Origin: Acidimicrobiia bacterium | GTDB lineage: Bacteria > Actinomycetota > Acidimicrobiia > Acidimicrobiales > Poriferisodalaceae | Length of the DNA: 61,230 bases | Assembly (NCBI GenBank): GCA_022824805.1 | Contig: JAJDZE010000147.1 | Coordinates: 1-61,230, forward strand | Direction of reading: 5' to 3' | Part shown: in pieces, positions 19,724-27,472 of the stretch | How the letters are laid out: each line of letters starts with the position of its first letter | Numbering within the stretch: the first letter of the stretch is position 1 | Notes under the pieces: generated by a model | The model's database searches: none | Seen by the model: the letters and a program-made list of their open reading frames with translations, nothing else | What the model was told of the DNA's origin: nothing | Position numbers and translations under genes: made by a program

Positions 19724-19762
19724 ATGTTCCGAGCGCTGCACTGTCCGGCAGTCAGCCGATGA
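19724..19762 (+). CDS. 12-codon leader peptide
   Basis: ATG at 19724 encodes MFRALHCPAVSR and a TGA at 19760-19762 that overlaps the ATG (19759) of the restriction gene as ATGA. With a leaderless -10 box just upstream and no Shine-Dalgarno before 19759, the main gene is probably translated by coupling from this leader. Confidence 0.45.
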   Translation: MFRALHCPAVSR

Positions 19763-22700
19763 CGACGAATTCGGCACCGTTCGACCTCGTGACGCTGCTG
19801 ACCGATCGGTACCCATCGCCGACTGCACGCGGCAGCGCATTCGAGCGCCTGATGCAGCAAGCCTTCCGGCAGCACCCCGACGTGTACGGGCCTCAACGCT
19901 TCAAGCAAATATGGCGTTGGATGGAGTGGCCCGAGCGGGTCGAACGCGGATACGGCGCCGATGCAGGCATCGACCTCGTTGCCGAGCAGACCGAAGAAGC
20001 CGGCGGGGGCCTGTGCGCCATCCAGACCAAGGCATATACCTCCCGGCGCATCGATAGGCCCGCTGTCGACTCGTTCATCTCCGAGTCTGACAGCGACGAT
20101 TTCTCCGCGCGGCTGCTGGTGTTGACGGCGCCCCTCACGGATCACGCCCGCAGGGCAGTCGAGAAGGCGGTGCCGCGCTGCGAAGTGCTGCACCGCAGCG
20201 ACCTCGAGTCGTGGCCCGTCAACTGGGACGAGTGCCTCGACCACCCGGCCGAGTTGCGCTTCACGCCCCAGCCGCGCCATACGCCCAAGCCGTTTCAGGT
20301 CGAGGCGATAGCGAAGGTGCTCGACGGGCTCGCCGCGGGAGACCGCGGACGGCTCATTCTGCCCTGCGGAACGGGCAAGTCGGTCGTCTCGCTGTGGATT
20401 GCCGAACAGCAGGCCGGCGTCGGCGGGCGGGTCCTGTACTTGGTGCCCTCAATCGCTCTGATGAACCAGACGATGCGCGAATGGGCACGCCAGCGAAATC
20501 CCGACATTGCGCATCGTTACATCGGCGTGTGCTCCGATACCCGCGCCGGACACGCGGCCGAGGATTCGCCATTGGCCGAGCTGGCAATGCCGGTCACCAC
20601 CGATCCGCAGCGCATCGCAGCGCAGCTAGCCATGAGCGATTCGGAGGCGATGACCGTCGTGTTCTGCACCTACCAGTCGCTCAGCCTCATCGCTGACGCG
20701 CAGGCTGGAGACGAGTCGGGCACCCGGGTACCCCCCTTCGATCTCGTGCTCTGCGACGAGGCACACCGCACCACCGGCATCGAGGACACGAAGACGCCGA
20801 AGAAGGCCAAGGCCGACAGTCGGACGATCACCCCGTACTCCTTCATTCACAACCCGGAGCGCGTGCGTGCCCACAAGCGCCTCTATATGACGGCGACACC
20901 TCGCGTCTACACCGAGGCAGCCAGGCGCCGAGCCAACGAGCACGAGCGCGACTTCGACGTCTTCTCCATGGACGACCCGAGCATCTACGGTCCTGAGCTG
21001 TACCGCATGTCGTTCGGCGACGCGGTCGAGGGCGGCCACCTCACCGACTACAAGGTGCTGGTCATCGCGGTGGCCGAGAACCCGGTGCTCGATGCATTCG
21101 ACAGCATCGTGATCGACGACGATCGGCCATTCAGCATCCACGAAGCAGTCCGCTTTGCCGGATGCTGGGACGGCTTGGCCGATCCCACCACCACCGCTGC
21201 TGAGGGCCGCATCACGGGCGCCGTCAACCCGCACGACGCTGCCCAGCGAGTCATCGCCTTCACCAACCGAATCCGCAACTCCCAACTGGTGGAGAGGTAC
21301 TGGAACCCCGTCGTCGAGGCGGTGGCTGCCGCGGTGCATGGTCGGACAGCGGCTGGCGATAAGGCCGAACTGCTCGGCTGCGACGTACGCCACGTCGACG
21401 GCTCGAAGAACGCGCTCGAACGAGCCGACACGATCGCATGGCTGCGACAAGGCGACGCCGACGGCGCCTGCCGCATCGTGACCAACGCCCGCTGCCTCAC
21501 CGAGGGCATCGACGTGCCGGCATTGGACGCCGTGATCTTCCTCGAACCGAAGCAGTCACAGATCGATGTCATACAGGCCGTCGGCCGCGTGATGCGGCGC
21601 GCCGAGCACAAAGATGTCGGCTACGTGATCCTGCCGGTGGTGGTTCCCTCCGGCGCAAGCCTGCTCGACGACCAGGTGCTGTCTGGCTCCGACTTCAAGG
21701 CCGTTTGGAAGGTCCTCAAGGCCCTGCGCTCGCACGACGAACGCCTAGACGTCGCGATCAACACAGCCGACCTGACAGGACGGCTGCCCATCAGCATCCT
21801 GCCGAGCGGCGTATGCAGCACATGCGGCCGGGCCGACGCCGAGTGTGACTGCGAGCAGGATGGCAACGGCGACATCGACGGCAAGGTAACCCAGCAGCGT
21901 CTGCCCTTCGAGCACGCCATTGCGTCACGGCTGGTGGCCGCCTGCGGGGATCGCCAGTACTGGGATCGCTGGGGACGTGAAGTAGCTCGGATCACCGGCA
22001 CCATCACTGAGCATGTGCGAACCACTGTCGGCGCAGACACCGACTTGGCTGCCAAGTTCGAGCGCTTCGGCGACCAGATGGAAGCCACCATCGGCGGGAG
22101 CCTGCCGTCGGGCGACCTTGCGGTGCTCGTAGCCCAGCACGTGGTCACGATGCCGGTCTTCGATGCGCTGTTCGCAGGCAGCGGTTTCGCTGACCGCAAC
22201 CCGATCTCTGCTGCGCTGAACGAACTGCTCGACGAGTTCAAGGCTGCCGACATCCGGCTTCGTGACGAGACGGTCGCATTGGACCGGTTCTACGACAGCG
22301 TCCGCAACCGTCTCTCTGGTGCGGCCGACTCCGATGCTCGGCTCAAGATCATGCTGGAGGTGTACGAGTCGTTCTTCAAAGAGGCGATGCCCGCCGAGAT
22401 CACTCGACTGGGGATCGTCTACACGCCTGTGGAACTCGTGGATTTCATGCTGCGGTCGGTCGACGCTGTGCTGCGCCAGGAGTTCGGACGCGGATTGACC
22501 TCGAAGGATGTCCATATCTTGGACCCCTTCACAGGCACGGGCACGTTCATCAACCGTCTGCTCACCCAGAACAACAGCGCCGGCGAGCCGCTGATCGCAG
22601 ACGAAGACTTGGAGCGCAAGTTCGTCAACACGCACAACCCGCTGGTGCCGGGCGGCAGCGTCCAAGAGATCCACGCCAACGAGATCGTGCTCCTCGCCTA

Positions 22701-24117
22701 CTACTTGGCCGCCATCAAGATCGAAGAGGGCTACCGGGACCGCACTGGCAGCTACGAGCCATTCAGCGGCATCGTGCTGACTGACACGTTCTCCCACGAC
22801 CCCGCAAGCCTGCCCGGAACGGGAACGATCGGCTACAACTCCGCGCGCGCCCGACAGCAAAACGAACTCCCCATACAAGTCATCATCGGCAACCCCCCGT
22901 GGTCGGCCGGCCAAAAGTCAGCGGGCGACGACAACCCGAACGTCGAGCACCCCCACATCGAGCAGCGCGTGCGCGACACCTACGGCCGCAGGCACCGCGA
23001 AGTCACCGGCCGCGGCGCCGGGCCGTCCTCGGGAAACCTGTACGTGGAGGCATTCCGCTGGGCGTGCGACCGCCTCGACACCCCAGAAGGCACTGGGGAT
23101 CGCCCTGGCGTCATCGCCATGGTGCATCCGAACTCGCTCTCGAATGCACCCTCGCTGGCAGGAATGCGTGCGTCGTTGCGAGACGAGTTCACCGACATCT
23201 ACGTCGTGAATCTGCTCGGCGACGCAATGAAGTCAGGCGATGACCGGCAACGTGAAGGCCAAAGCGCTTTCGGCCAAGGCTCTCGCAACGGCGTGCAGCT
23301 CACCGTGCTCGTTCGCAACCCGAGCAGGGGCCAAGGTGCAGCCACGCTGCATTACGCCGAAGCGCCCGAATACTCGACTCGTGACGCAAAGTTCGCTTGG
23401 CTCGCGGGCCTCGCCGACGTCACCGGCGACCAGTTCCAAACGGTGCCCGTCAATGACGCCCACGACTGGGTCAACCTCACCGACGACTCCTTCTCAGAGC
23501 TGCTGCCCGTTCTGACGGTCGGCCGGGAATCGTCGAGCGAAGCCGCCATCACCGAGCAGAGCGCCCTCGGTGCCAAGACGAACTGTGACGCCTACGTCTA
23601 TGCGTTCAGCCGGGAAGCGCTCTCAACCAAGGTGGCCGCACTGATTGAAGCCTACGAACGCGCACGTCAAGCCGTGGAACAGGGTGCATCCTTCGAGAGC
23701 ATCACCGCGAACGATGACCTCGAGACCATCAAGTGGACACATACCTTGAAGAGTTCGCTCAAGCGCAACCTCGAGATCGAATTCGACGAGAGCCGCATTC
23801 GCGAGGTGCTGTATCGGCCGTTCACCAAGCTCTGGCTCTATGAGGACCATCGCATCATTTCTCAAGCGAGGGCCACAAGTGACCTGTTCCCGCCGACCGA
23901 ATCTGCTAGGGACGCTACCGACCGACCGACCGACCGACCGACCGACCGACCGACCGACCGACCGACCGACCGACCGACCGACCGACCGACCGGGATCTGC
24001 ATCGCAGCGCCGAACAACCGGGCCGTCTTCGGAACACTGGCGACCGATTGCGTCGTCGACCTCTGCGCCTTCGGCACCAACCAGCCCGCCCGGGCCATCC
24101 CACGACGACGATCCTGA
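19759..24117 (+). CDS. Type ISP-like restriction-modification enzyme (helicase-nuclease-methylase), tail in frame 1
   Basis: 1452 aa single-chain enzyme. An Mrr-like PD-(D/E)xK nuclease (D72, QTK at 89-91) is followed by an SF2 helicase/translocase with GTGKS (204-208), DEAH (333-336), MTATPRV and QAVGRVMRR. Then comes an N6-adenine methyltransferase with DPFTGTGTF (~922) and NPPW (~1045), and a target-recognition region. It would methylate one DNA site and cleave unmodified DNA after translocation. At ~1387 an (ACCG)19 tract encodes (TDRP)6, then tail copy 1 ends at 24117. The family's last ~250 residues are encoded separately at 24343. An open frame back to 19417 is rejected as non-homologous. 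Confidence 0.85.
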   Translation: MTTNSAPFDLVTLLTDRYPSPTARGSAFERLMQQAFRQHPDVYGPQRFKQIWRWMEWPERVERGYGADAGIDLVAEQTEEAGGGLCAIQTKAYTSRRIDRPAVDSFISESDSDDFSARLLVLTAPLTDHARRAVEKAVPRCEVLHRSDLESWPVNWDECLDHPAELRFTPQPRHTPKPFQVEAIAKVLDGLAAGDRGRLILPCGTGKSVVSLWIAEQQAGVGGRVLYLVPSIALMNQTMREWARQRNPDIAHRYIGVCSDTRAGHAAEDSPLAELAMPVTTDPQRIAAQLAMSDSEAMTVVFCTYQSLSLIADAQAGDESGTRVPPFDLVLCDEAHRTTGIEDTKTPKKAKADSRTITPYSFIHNPERVRAHKRLYMTATPRVYTEAARRRANEHERDFDVFSMDDPSIYGPELYRMSFGDAVEGGHLTDYKVLVIAVAENPVLDAFDSIVIDDDRPFSIHEAVRFAGCWDGLADPTTTAAEGRITGAVNPHDAAQRVIAFTNRIRNSQLVERYWNPVVEAVAAAVHGRTAAGDKAELLGCDVRHVDGSKNALERADTIAWLRQGDADGACRIVTNARCLTEGIDVPALDAVIFLEPKQSQIDVIQAVGRVMRRAEHKDVGYVILPVVVPSGASLLDDQVLSGSDFKAVWKVLKALRSHDERLDVAINTADLTGRLPISILPSGVCSTCGRADAECDCEQDGNGDIDGKVTQQRLPFEHAIASRLVAACGDRQYWDRWGREVARITGTITEHVRTTVGADTDLAAKFERFGDQMEATIGGSLPSGDLAVLVAQHVVTMPVFDALFAGSGFADRNPISAALNELLDEFKAADIRLRDETVALDRFYDSVRNRLSGAADSDARLKIMLEVYESFFKEAMPAEITRLGIVYTPVELVDFMLRSVDAVLRQEFGRGLTSKDVHILDPFTGTGTFINRLLTQNNSAGEPLIADEDLERKFVNTHNPLVPGGSVQEIHANEIVLLAYYLAAIKIEEGYRDRTGSYEPFSGIVLTDTFSHDPASLPGTGTIGYNSARARQQNELPIQVIIGNPPWSAGQKSAGDDNPNVEHPHIEQRVRDTYGRRHREVTGRGAGPSSGNLYVEAFRWACDRLDTPEGTGDRPGVIAMVHPNSLSNAPSLAGMRASLRDEFTDIYVVNLLGDAMKSGDDRQREGQSAFGQGSRNGVQLTVLVRNPSRGQGAATLHYAEAPEYSTRDAKFAWLAGLADVTGDQFQTVPVNDAHDWVNLTDDSFSELLPVLTVGRESSSEAAITEQSALGAKTNCDAYVYAFSREALSTKVAALIEAYERARQAVEQGASFESITANDDLETIKWTHTLKSSLKRNLEIEFDESRIREVLYRPFTKLWLYEDHRIISQARATSDLFPPTESARDATDRPTDRPTDRPTDRPTDRPTDRPTGICIAAPNNRAVFGTLATDCVVDLCAFGTNQPARAIPRRRS
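23917..23992 (+). repeat. (ACCG)19 tetranucleotide repeat inside the restriction gene
   Basis: 76 bases, 19 perfect units, read as TDRP repeats in every frame, so no frame contains a stop. Gain or loss of one unit shifts the downstream frame by one base. It is positioned between the body of the enzyme and three alternative tails. Confidence 0.95.
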
Positions 24118-24346
24118 TCTCTGGGGCCTCGAACATGACCTTCCAAGCACTAGCGACGGACACCATGCCCGACATCGCGGCGATCAAGGGATCTCAGCAG
24201 ACGCGCGCACTGCCGCGACAGAGGCGATCCTCTTGAGCACGCCGTCCACCCGAACGACCTTTGCTGCGCTAGCCACACAGACGCTGCCGGACTTGCACGC
24301 CTTGGACCCGGCAGGACGCGCATTCCCGCGGAAGCGACAGCCATGA
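23994..24346 (+). repeat. Three tandem 116-bp tail cassettes, one per reading frame
   Basis: Copies begin at 23994, 24110 and 24226 (each starting GATC), spaced exactly 116 bases. In frames 1, 3 and 2 respectively they encode FGTLATDCVVDLCAF...RAIPRRRS, FQALATDTMPDIAAI...RALPRQR and FAALATQTLPDLHAL...RAFPRKRQP, with stops at 24117, 24236 and 24346. All match the family motif F-x-x-L-x-T-D-x-x-P-D-L near the end of Type ISP enzymes. Confidence 0.85.
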
Positions 24347-25182
24347 CTGAAACGCTCGATCTGCGAATGCCCGGCGACGATCAAGTGGCCGACACGGACA
24401 ACGTCAGTGACTGGGCATTGGAGCAGTTCCAAGCCAAATACGGCTCCGACATCTCCAAGGACGACATCTGGGAATACCTGTACGGCGTGATGCACTCGCC
24501 GGAATGGCGCGTCGACTACCGCCACGATCTTCAGCGCAACCTGCCGCGCATCCCGCTGGCCGACGATTTCGAACCGTTCCGGGCAGCTGGGCGCAAGCTG
24601 ATGGACCTCCACATCGGTTACGAAACCGTCGACGAATATCCAGTGCAGTGCCTCGTGGATAGTGAGCCGGACGAAGGCGACGCCGACGGCAGCGCCTACC
24701 GGATCGAGAGCCGGATGCGCTGGGGCAAGCGCTCTGACGGCAGCGAAGACCGCACTGTGCTCTTGGTCAACAGCAGGTGCCGCCTCGTCGGCATTCCAGT
24801 CGAGACCGCGCACTACACAGTGTCGGGGCGCACCCCGCTGCAATGGGCCATCGACAGCCTGCGCGTCAAGCACGACAAAGCGTCGGGCATCATCGACGAT
24901 CCCAACGGCTGGCGCGACTGGGCAGACGAGCCGTTCAACCTCATTCGCCACCTGCGCCGTCTCGTCACGGTGAGCTACGAATCGGCCGTCATCATCGCCT
25001 GGCTGCCCACCTCGCGGCCCGGCGAGTCACACCTGTACGAGCCGGGTCCCGTCACGCTCGCCGACATCATCGAATCGCAGGGCAAGGCACCACCGCTCGA
25101 AGACCCCACCGGCATCATCTACACCGACGAAGAATTCGTCGCGCACCTAGAGTCTCTTGCCGACGAACCGCCCGTCGGGTGA
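24343..25182 (+). CDS. Detached C-terminal domain of the Type ISP enzyme
   Basis: 279 aa. ALEQFQAKYGSDISKDDIW, EYLYGVMHSPEWRVDYRHDL and LPRIPLADDFEPFRAAGRKL match the extreme C-terminus of Type ISP restriction enzymes (LlaGI/LlaBIII group), where it belongs to the target-recognition region. Here it is a separate gene whose ATG overlaps (ATGA) the stop of tail cassette 3 only. In the present tract length the upstream protein stops 225 bases earlier, so coupling would be lost. It may supply DNA specificity in trans. Confidence 0.8.
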   Translation: MTETLDLRMPGDDQVADTDNVSDWALEQFQAKYGSDISKDDIWEYLYGVMHSPEWRVDYRHDLQRNLPRIPLADDFEPFRAAGRKLMDLHIGYETVDEYPVQCLVDSEPDEGDADGSAYRIESRMRWGKRSDGSEDRTVLLVNSRCRLVGIPVETAHYTVSGRTPLQWAIDSLRVKHDKASGIIDDPNGWRDWADEPFNLIRHLRRLVTVSYESAVIIAWLPTSRPGESHLYEPGPVTLADIIESQGKAPPLEDPTGIIYTDEEFVAHLESLADEPPVG

Positions 25183-25263
25183 CGGCCGGGCATCCGACCG
25201 CACGCGGCCGACAACTTTGGCGCATGACTGGGAAGCCAGGCGCCACTTCGTCACGTTCACCAT

Positions 25264-25622: not shown

Positions 25623-25678
25623 TGCATTCGTTCGAATGCAGCCGGAGCGATCTAGCAATGTGCATTGGATACGATGCA
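25623..25678 (+). promoter_or_regulatory. Twin operator palindromes upstream of hipB
   Basis: TGCATTCGTTCGAATGCA (25623-25640) and TGCATTGGATACGATGCA (25661-25678) are two 18-bp inverted repeats with TGCAT half-sites, centred 38 bases apart. A TAGAGT (25694-25699) follows as a possible -10. The spacing is what a HipB dimer pair would need for autorepression. Confidence 0.55.
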
Positions 25679-25715
25679 CGCGCAGCAAAGACGTAGAGTG
25701 CACTCAGTCGGCTGC

Positions 25716-26195
25716 ATGATGTATCGAAGCCGTTACGGTTCGGGCACGGACGAGCGCAGCGCCCGAACGCCCACAGCATGGTCCACGATGATGCCCGAGT
25801 CGACGAATCCGAAACCTGCAACGACGCCTGACAGCGATCAAGCCGGAGAGTCCAGCACGCCGTGCGGCGGTGGGCGGCAACGACCTTCCCTTGACGTCTA
25901 CACGGTCGAGGGGATCGGCGTGGCCGTGGCACAGCTGCGGCAAGCGGCAGGACTCACCCAGACGGAGTTCGGGGAGATGGTCGGCGCGTCGCGGCCCTGG
26001 GTATCCGATCTCGAGCGCGGGAACCTGCGGGGCGGTCAACTCGACACCGTGCTGGCATGCATCCGTGCACTGGGGTACCGAATTGTGCTGGAGGACATCG
26101 ACACCAAGCCCTCGAAGCTCGACGATCTCAAGAACGCCATGCGCATCGGACCGCTTGCACGCAGGCCCGCGGCCGCGTCTGACTCGCCGCAATGA
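25716..26195 (+). CDS. hipB: HipB-like XRE-family antitoxin/regulator
   Basis: 159 aa from ATG 25716. After a long polar N-terminus the helix-turn-helix reads VAVAQLRQAAGLTQTEFGE then MVGASRPWVSDLERG, followed by LACIRALGYRIVLEDID. It would bind the twin palindromes upstream and neutralise HipA. Starts at 25788 or 25791 would give a more usual HipB length and cannot be excluded. Its stop overlaps hipA (ATGA). Confidence 0.85.
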   Translation: MMYRSRYGSGTDERSARTPTAWSTMMPESTNPKPATTPDSDQAGESSTPCGGGRQRPSLDVYTVEGIGVAVAQLRQAAGLTQTEFGEMVGASRPWVSDLERGNLRGGQLDTVLACIRALGYRIVLEDIDTKPSKLDDLKNAMRIGPLARRPAAASDSPQ

Positions 26196-27472
26196 CAGCT
26201 CGACTCGCGGTCCTGCTGGACGGCCAGATCGTCGGCACGGTCGACGCCGGCCGTGCCAGTCGCAACGATGCATTCGTCTACAGCGATCGTTGGCTCGACC
26301 AGGGCGACAGCGCGATGCCGCTCTCGCTCAGCATGCCGCTGAACCGCCGTCGCCACCCGGCGAGCATCATCAGGACATGGCTCGAAGGCTTGCTGCCCGA
26401 CGATGCCGAACTGCTGCGGCACTGGCAACGAGTCACCGGCGCAGCCTCCACCGATCCCTTCGATCTCCTGGCGACGCCGATGGGTCTTGACTGTGCCGGC
26501 GCCGTACAGGTCTGCCCCGAGAGCGACGTCGACACTGCGCTGGCGCGCGGCGGGGGTATGCAGCGGCTCAGCGACAACGAGGTGGCGCGTCAGCTGAGCG
26601 AAATGCGGCAGCTCACGCATCTCGGATCCGACGGCGCCGTGCCCGGCTACTTCAGCCTCGCTGGGGCGCAGGCCAAGGTCGCGCTCCGCAGGCACCGCGG
26701 AGCGTGGCACCAGCCGCACGGCACTGCCGCCACTACGCACATTCTCAAGCCTGCGGTGTTCATGACACAGCATCAGGCTGTCATCGAGCACCTCTCCATG
26801 GCGGCAGCGAGTCGGCTGGGGTTCCCCACAGCGAACACCAAAATCGCTGTCTACGGAGGCTGCGACACGGTGATCGTGAAACGCTATGACCGCCGACGCA
26901 TCGGCGATCGACTGCTGCGGCTGCACCAAGAAGACCTGTGCCAAGCGCTCGGTCTCGCACCGACGCTGCGATACGAGCAGCACGGCGGGCCGTCGCTGAC
27001 ACACATCGTGTCACTGCTGCGCCAGCACTCGACCTCGCCTGACGAAGATGTGGCCGACCTCACCGACGCATTGGCCTATCAGTGGATCATCGGCGCGCCC
27101 GACGGCCATGCCAAGAACTTCAGCCTGATGCTCGACGCCTCGGAAGTGCGCCTAGCCCCCATGTACGACGTGTGCTCCGTGCTGCCCTACTTGGACCGGG
27201 ATGAGCCGGTCGGACATGCGTTCGCCATCGGCGGCAGTCACGCGGTCACGCCTGATGAGGCACCGACGCGCTGGACCCGATTCGCGGAGGACATCGACAT
27301 ACGCGCAGACCTGCTGCTCAACCGCATCCGCGACATCGCCGCGGCCGTCCGAAGCGCTTTCGCGGACGAGGCCGCTTTGCTGCCAGGAGAGCTTGCCGCT
27401 TCCCCCCGCGTCGGCATGCTGCTCGACCGGCTTGACACCCGCACGAAGTCCTGCCTGGCAAGCGTTCGCTGA
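26192..27472 (+). CDS. hipA: HipA-like serine/threonine kinase toxin
   Basis: 426 aa. The HipA N-domain (LAVLLDGQIVGTV) is followed by SLAGAQAKVAL (nucleotide loop), ILKPAVF with the Lys, VIVKRYDRR, HQEDLCQALG, the catalytic IGAPDGHAKNFS and the metal-binding Asp in LAPMYDVCSV. HipA toxins phosphorylate targets such as aminoacyl-tRNA synthetases and induce dormancy. Its last ~20 codons and 3' flank match the left border repeat of the island. Confidence 0.9.
   Translation: MTARLAVLLDGQIVGTVDAGRASRNDAFVYSDRWLDQGDSAMPLSLSMPLNRRRHPASIIRTWLEGLLPDDAELLRHWQRVTGAASTDPFDLLATPMGLDCAGAVQVCPESDVDTALARGGGMQRLSDNEVARQLSEMRQLTHLGSDGAVPGYFSLAGAQAKVALRRHRGAWHQPHGTAATTHILKPAVFMTQHQAVIEHLSMAAASRLGFPTANTKIAVYGGCDTVIVKRYDRRRIGDRLLRLHQEDLCQALGLAPTLRYEQHGGPSLTHIVSLLRQHSTSPDEDVADLTDALAYQWIIGAPDGHAKNFSLMLDASEVRLAPMYDVCSVLPYLDRDEPVGHAFAIGGSHAVTPDEAPTRWTRFAEDIDIRADLLLNRIRDIAAAVRSAFADEAALLPGELAASPRVGMLLDRLDTRTKSCLASVR

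Follow-up and report, generated by a model that had tools for sequence, protein, structure and literature searches.

A tetranucleotide tract as a probable three-way selector of recognition-loop cassettes in a split Type ISP restriction-modification enzyme

In a restriction-modification gene of an Acidimicrobiia genome, we found three mutually homologous cassettes of about 38 amino acids that lie in three different reading frames, each with its own stop, behind a perfect tetranucleotide repeat. The three-frame pattern is real and goes far beyond chance, and it recurs with other repeat units in related genomes. We consider it highly probable that the locus acts as a three-way, phase-variable selector of specificity in a split Type ISP enzyme, in which slipped-strand mispairing would swap the recognition loop. 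The gene lies in a 61,230-nucleotide stretch of DNA (hereafter the window) from a genome of 3.69 Mb that is closest to metagenome-assembled genomes of Acidimicrobiia.

Layout of the locus

The constant Type ISP core (19759-23916, plus strand) contains an Mrr-type nuclease, a ResIII/helicase, the ISP coupler, a gamma methyltransferase and the start of the TRD as far as Loop V. Its ORF is open from 19417, with the ATG at 19759 as the likely start. The core matches PF13156, PF04851, PF00271, PF22240 and positions 4-150 of PF18135, is assigned to REase_MTase_IIG by PADLOC (E=0), and aligns by phmmer, across the core, with LlaGI (5ffj, 9e-209) and LlaBIII (4xqk, 2e-207). It runs into a simple sequence repeat on the same strand, the selector tract at 23917-23992, which is a perfect (ACCG)19 and encodes T-D-R-P in every frame, both as originally predicted.

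Behind the tract, all on the plus strand, are cassette 1 (23995-24117; alpha class, Loop VI ..DLCAFGTNQPAR..; stop TGA at 24115-24117), cassette 2 (24111-24236; beta class, ..DIAAIKGSQQTR..; stop TGA at 24234-24236) and cassette 3 (24227-24346; delta class, ..DLHALDPAGR..; stop TGA at 24344-24346). An HMM of the cassettes matches them in frames 1, 0 and 2, respectively (E=9e-22, 3e-21 and 3e-18), in agreement with the predicted three segments in three frames with stops of their own. The original prediction had also described an exact 116-bp period. The segments do start at 23994, 24110 and 24226, as such a period requires, but they are not a tandem repeat at the DNA level, going unreported by Tandem Repeats Finder; their homology is that of proteins, with 39-51% amino-acid identity between the window cassettes and saturated dS in the alignment that had been proposed as a check. 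When tract length was varied in silico, the present 19 units led into cassette 1, 20 units (+1) into cassette 2 and 18 units (-1) into cassette 3, each with its tail intact, as expected if tract length chooses the tail.

The remainder of the specificity domain is found in a separate ORF, which we call the guide ORF (24343-25182, plus strand; PF18135 positions 162-341, E=2e-45). It starts at an ATG that shares bases with the cassette 3 stop (ATGA) and has GGAAG upstream, and its product aligns after the cassette stretch in LlaGI, LlaBIII and DrdV. The Type ISP domain order of nuclease, helicase, coupler and gamma methyltransferase is present in the window core and in five relatives. The C-terminal specificity domain of this type is also present, the core ORF carrying positions 4-150 of PF18135 and the following ORF 162-341. 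Type ISP enzymes are defined as single polypeptides, and the plasmid relatives are single ORFs, whereas here the specificity domain is spread over two; the window system is thus a split derivative and not a standard member. From its domains, it is best called a split, phase-variable Type ISP derivative, with ATP-dependent translocation, m6A methylation and cleavage as predicted activities.

Two further observations concern the region around the guide ORF. Between the window (23600-25200) and its relative L029 (6100-7787), the guide ORF is 92% identical in DNA, and the core end and cassettes only about 75%, a drop that suggests recombination at the junction. Directly 3' of the restriction system, at 25665-27472, lies a hipBA-like pair consisting of a helix-turn-helix ORF and HipA (PF07804/PF13657).

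The cassettes and the base-reading loop

In LlaGI, Loop VI (residues 1365-1374) reads target base +3, a G:C pair, using H1368, G1372 and Q1373, and interacts with a hairpin beside it (1347-1358); the equivalent residue of LlaBIII, N1360, reads A:T (PMC4872093). A phmmer search with core, cassette 1 and guide combined placed the cassette on the Omega hairpin and Loop VI stretch, the LlaGI/LlaBIII numbering having been verified by H1368/G1372/Q1373, N1327/R1329 and N1360. LlaGI scored 25.7 bits on the cassette profile, against at most 6.4 bits across 600 shuffles, and cassette 3 gave a weak match to positions 117-153 of PF18135 (E=0.024). The tract falls in the loop that connects Loop V to the hairpin. 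Judging from these alignments, the TRD elements represented by the cassette are the hairpin and Loop VI. The original description of a 'C-terminal tail' was correct in that a C-terminal piece would be swapped and understated what that piece appears to be, namely the Loop VI module with which the specificity domain reads a base, followed by a constant partner ORF. Sorted by Loop VI motif, the 94 cassettes of all loci form about ten classes, and the residue that defines the class (C or S, A, H, N or K) occupies the H1368/N1360 column. Any base assigned to a class would follow by analogy with those two enzymes only; on that footing, class zeta (N, as in LlaBIII) would be expected to read A:T, and class gamma (H..GxGQ, as in LlaGI) G:C.

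These findings suggest a simple mechanism. Slipped-strand mispairing would alter the number of ACCG units, as we infer from the comparison of relatives described below. Because the unit is 4 nt long, each gain or loss shifts the reading frame, and the shift would join the constant nuclease-helicase-methyltransferase core to one of the three cassettes, which would bring its own version of the Omega hairpin and Loop VI and end at its own stop. The guide ORF product, a separate chain, would be the constant partner and would make the recognition domain complete, presumably by pairing with core plus cassette. A change of cassette would most likely mean a different base at target position +3, for restriction and methylation together, and a clone would become a mixture of cells that differ in methylation patterns and phage barriers.

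The strongest rival to this mechanism holds that the tails differ in some property other than specificity, such as stability, assembly with the guide chain or the balance of restriction and methylation, and that the target stays the same. We regard it as unlikely. The cassette does carry structural residues as well, in the Omega hairpin and a PR-rich end, but it also holds Loop VI, and the residue that defines its class sits where base +3 is read in both solved enzymes. Moreover, the classes are conserved across families and never repeated in one array, as expected of a menu of targets. What counts against a specificity selector is the sequence that comes before the cassette: in states 2 and 3 it is preceded by 39-78 out-of-frame residues, and in the nested arrays of relatives by far more, over 200. 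An AlphaFold model of core plus cassette 1, built with 14 sequences, was uninformative (mean pLDDT 48.8).

Recurrence, frame logic and selection

Searching with the guide ORF and with the cassette profile, we found the selector layout in further members of the genus and, beyond it, in other genera and families of the class, mostly in metagenome-assembled genomes. At least one cassette match occurred in 12 of 395 sampled genomes of the class, from 9 genera, and 11 of these 12 had at least two. A phylum-wide sample of 396 genomes yielded no further arrays outside the class, and no relatives of the guide ORF were found in viral contigs. The tracts vary by locus and include GGAGC12 (L029), GA13 (L035), AG7 (L038), AC14, G11 and G13 together (L032), G14 and G15 (L033), C tracts and others. 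Long tracts are concentrated in the selector regions, with 41 in 14.6 kb versus 25 in 240 kb elsewhere, and all 41 have units of 1, 2, 4 or 5 nt, with units of 3 or 6 nt absent. The units (ACCG, GGAGC, GA, AC, G, C) are stop-free. Even close relatives differ: the window has ACCG where L029 has GGAGC, although their guide proteins are 95% identical, and AG22 in L030 corresponds to GA13 in L035 between flanks of 85% identity, so that both unit type and number differ between species.

This variety bears on the idea that programmed ribosomal frameshifting or transcriptional slippage at the tract yields all isoforms at once in each cell, with no heritable switching. Such a process would also keep the frames open, and the G9-G19 tracts of relatives could slip in transcription. 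The same position is, however, occupied by 4-nt and 5-nt units (ACCG19, GGAGC12), and we know of no polymerase or ribosome that slips by one unit on such repeats. Variation of unit type and number among relatives, together with the lack of 3- and 6-nt units, is what DNA slippage predicts, and we judge expression-level slippage as the sole explanation to be quite improbable. For the G tracts, a hybrid of the two processes is possible.

The frames themselves follow a strict rule. From one cassette to the next with no tract between, the step is 2 mod 3 in 51 of 51 pairs from about 20 loci. We then counted stops outside the cassettes in codons that the selector requires to be open, using codons in frames already terminated as the control, and found none among the 3857 required-open codons and 71 among the 2566 control codons (Fisher p = 3e-29, a nominal value since related loci are not independent). 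This count left out four damaged or truncated arrays and scored frames that end in an embedded cassette, a type with a G tract in its own Loop VI, as terminated; with those frames scored as required-open instead, there were 11 stops in 4005 codons versus 64 in 2422. Ordinary single-chain relatives have one cassette and no tract, and each of their other frames contains 2-5 stops over 420 bp.

Selection on the window cassettes was estimated from orthologue pairs. In their own frames, cassette 1 against cassette 1 of L029 gave dN 0.077 and dS 0.74, cassette 2 against cassette 2 of L029 gave dN 0.048 and dS 1.04, and cassette 3 against cassette 3 of L031 gave dN 0.095 and dS 1.15; in shifted frames, which were compared only for orthologue pairs of equal length, dN exceeded dS. 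These estimates show purifying selection on every window cassette when it is read in its own frame, and that includes cassettes 2 and 3, whose protein sequences are conserved although the assembly has them out of frame. Within arrays, class repeats numbered 0 where 18.2 were expected (21 arrays, p about 5e-5), a result that speaks for a menu of distinct functions and against tandem duplication in the recent past.

Restriction genes that are switched by repeats are, in most known cases, turned on or off, and two arrays (L034, L083) do contain dead states, as they might if only one tail were real and the other segments were decaying duplicates. We find ordinary on/off switching of this sort very improbable given that dN/dS is about 0.05-0.1 in the own frame even for cassettes now out of frame, that no stops interrupt the required-open codons, and that duplicates would resemble each other whereas arrays never repeat a class. 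Nor is there one preferred cassette, the assembled genomes occupying different tract states. The prediction that one C-terminus replaces another, in place of the gene turning on and off, is well supported by these comparisons, with the same architecture in about 20 related loci, purifying selection on out-of-frame cassettes, and single-chain relatives that lack the tract.

The position of the guide ORF raises a different possibility, that the choice of tail merely couples or uncouples guide translation, since only the stop of cassette 3 overlaps the guide ATG. The last cassette and the guide start do overlap, as ATGA or GTGA, in the window, L030, L031, L035, L038 and L077. In seven loci (L034, L036, L037, L039, L041, L042 and L082), though, the guide ORF precedes the core and the cassettes stand at the end, and the selector is retained everywhere except in L034 and L036, which are partly damaged. 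Nor would homologous, conserved cassettes be needed for coupling. We rejected it as the main function because of these seven loci, and consider it exceedingly improbable.

Nested tracts and known repeat-driven switches

Some relatives have several tracts in one array, with 5, 7 or 8 cassettes. Behind each non-terminal tract, two frames lead into a cassette and the third runs on without a stop to the next tract; behind the last tract, all three frames lead into cassettes. In tract simulations, all cassettes could be reached in the window (3/3), in L032 with its three tracts (7/7) and in L033, L039, L078 and L080 with two tracts each (5/5 each). In L041, from the single-contig genome G089, four tracts are combined with seven cassettes and an additional embedded one, a type also present in L042, L079, L081 and L082. 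A few arrays show damage, including L034, L083 and one of the nine expected ends of L041. Comparing L039 (5761-6363) with L037 (7050-7410), we found that L039 has an additional block, made up of one tract and two cassettes (epsilon, beta), that is absent from L037, between flanks about 92% identical; tree nodes would thus be gained or lost as modules.

We think it likely that chained tracts act as a frame-addressed decision tree, in which n tracts would address about 2n+1 cassettes. Each gene would then be a roughly 2n+1-way heritable switch without a recombinase, selecting one of three to about eight non-redundant DNA-recognition modules and changing restriction and methylation specificity together, and the recognition loop may be largely swappable across the whole class.

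Repeat-driven changes of specificity have been described before. In the H. pylori Type IIG systems Hpy99XIV (JHP1272) and HpyAXVI (HP1353-HP1354), SMRT sequencing showed targets changing from GGWTAA to GGWCNA and from CRTTRA to CRTCNA (PMC3936762). As would be the case in the window, a tract late in the gene, there a homopolymer, decides which copy of a TRD segment is used (PMC3936762), and the alternative segments of the window are homologous, by the Loop VI alignment, to a base-reading part of the TRD. Those switches have two states, with the second segment appended behind the first, a separate on/off tract, a single chain, no nesting and no helicase (PMC3936762). In the window, by contrast, every frame holds one homologous cassette before its stop, so that three mutually exclusive cassettes, or more in nested relatives, are staggered across all frames. 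For the Type I system NgoAV of N. gonorrhoeae, polyG length in hsdS1 shifts specificity from GCAN8TGC to GCAN7STCA by producing a truncated or a fused specificity subunit, which gives two specificities and involves no set of homologous cassettes (PMC9577141).

C-terminal phase variation as a general phenomenon is known from Helicobacter canadensis and N. gonorrhoeae, where a tract near the 3' end makes the C-terminus vary between three frames; the listed tails are mostly short, and homologous conserved modules are undescribed (PMC2823697, PMC5320596). The window gene has the features of that category, as its tract lies inside an ORF, has a unit length that is not a multiple of 3, and is followed in every frame by a product with a different C-terminus. 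Compared with LlaGI and LlaBIII, it shares the domain order and sequence, and its cassette aligns with their Omega hairpin and Loop VI, but these enzymes are single chains with a fixed Loop VI and no tract, whereas in the window the TRD is split and Loop VI appears selectable (PMC4872093).

Invertible hsdS loci and shufflons likewise combine a constant part with several alternative recognition modules and a stochastic choice among them, their DNA being rearranged by recombinases. The window system, in contrast, moves no DNA and needs no recombinase; only the frame changes. The original prediction knew of no described case, which holds for the exclusive multi-cassette and nested forms, for which we found no equal, and not for two-state specificity switches or C-terminal phase variation in general. 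No multi-way, repeat-selected cassette system turned up in the literature searched, a body of work with subscription papers mostly outside it. Given that no described equal was found, what seems new is the combination of mutually exclusive homologous cassettes in all frames with nested tracts.

Descriptions of repeat-driven switches usually concern on/off systems, or at most ones with two states, whereas one gene here appears to store several recognition modules in overlapping frames, addressed by tract length and, in larger arrays, through a tree of tracts. If this is true, it would provide recombinase-free diversification of phage defence and methylation within a clone. About ten interchangeable Loop VI modules would also be available as a natural library, and their base preferences could be determined directly, which would help in decoding and engineering Type ISP and related MmeI-like enzymes. 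Decoding and engineering the specificity of such enzymes has been called an 'unaccomplished challenge' (PMC4872093).

Several additional tracts were observed in these loci. The embedded cassettes have the loop ..DLN.L..GGGG.R.., with G tracts at L041 9214-9222, near L042 8953 (minus strand), at L079 6377 and as the first G tracts of L081 and L082; because such a tract lies inside Loop VI, its length would alter loop length too. In guide-first loci, the guide ORF starts with ATGACC and then a C tract of 9 to 15 (L034 6950-7000, L036 1680-1745, L037 1973-2030, L039 697-750), which would give the guide chain an on/off switch of its own. Runs of G19 or G20 adjoin N-filled stretches in L035 (5895-5993) and L075 (6394-6602) and are probably scaffold or assembly artefacts, with unreliable tract counts. 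Finally, a G19 homopolymer at 150-168 of the window, near the contig end and upstream of the side with the minus-strand ORF 305-2059, is a possible phase-variable site.
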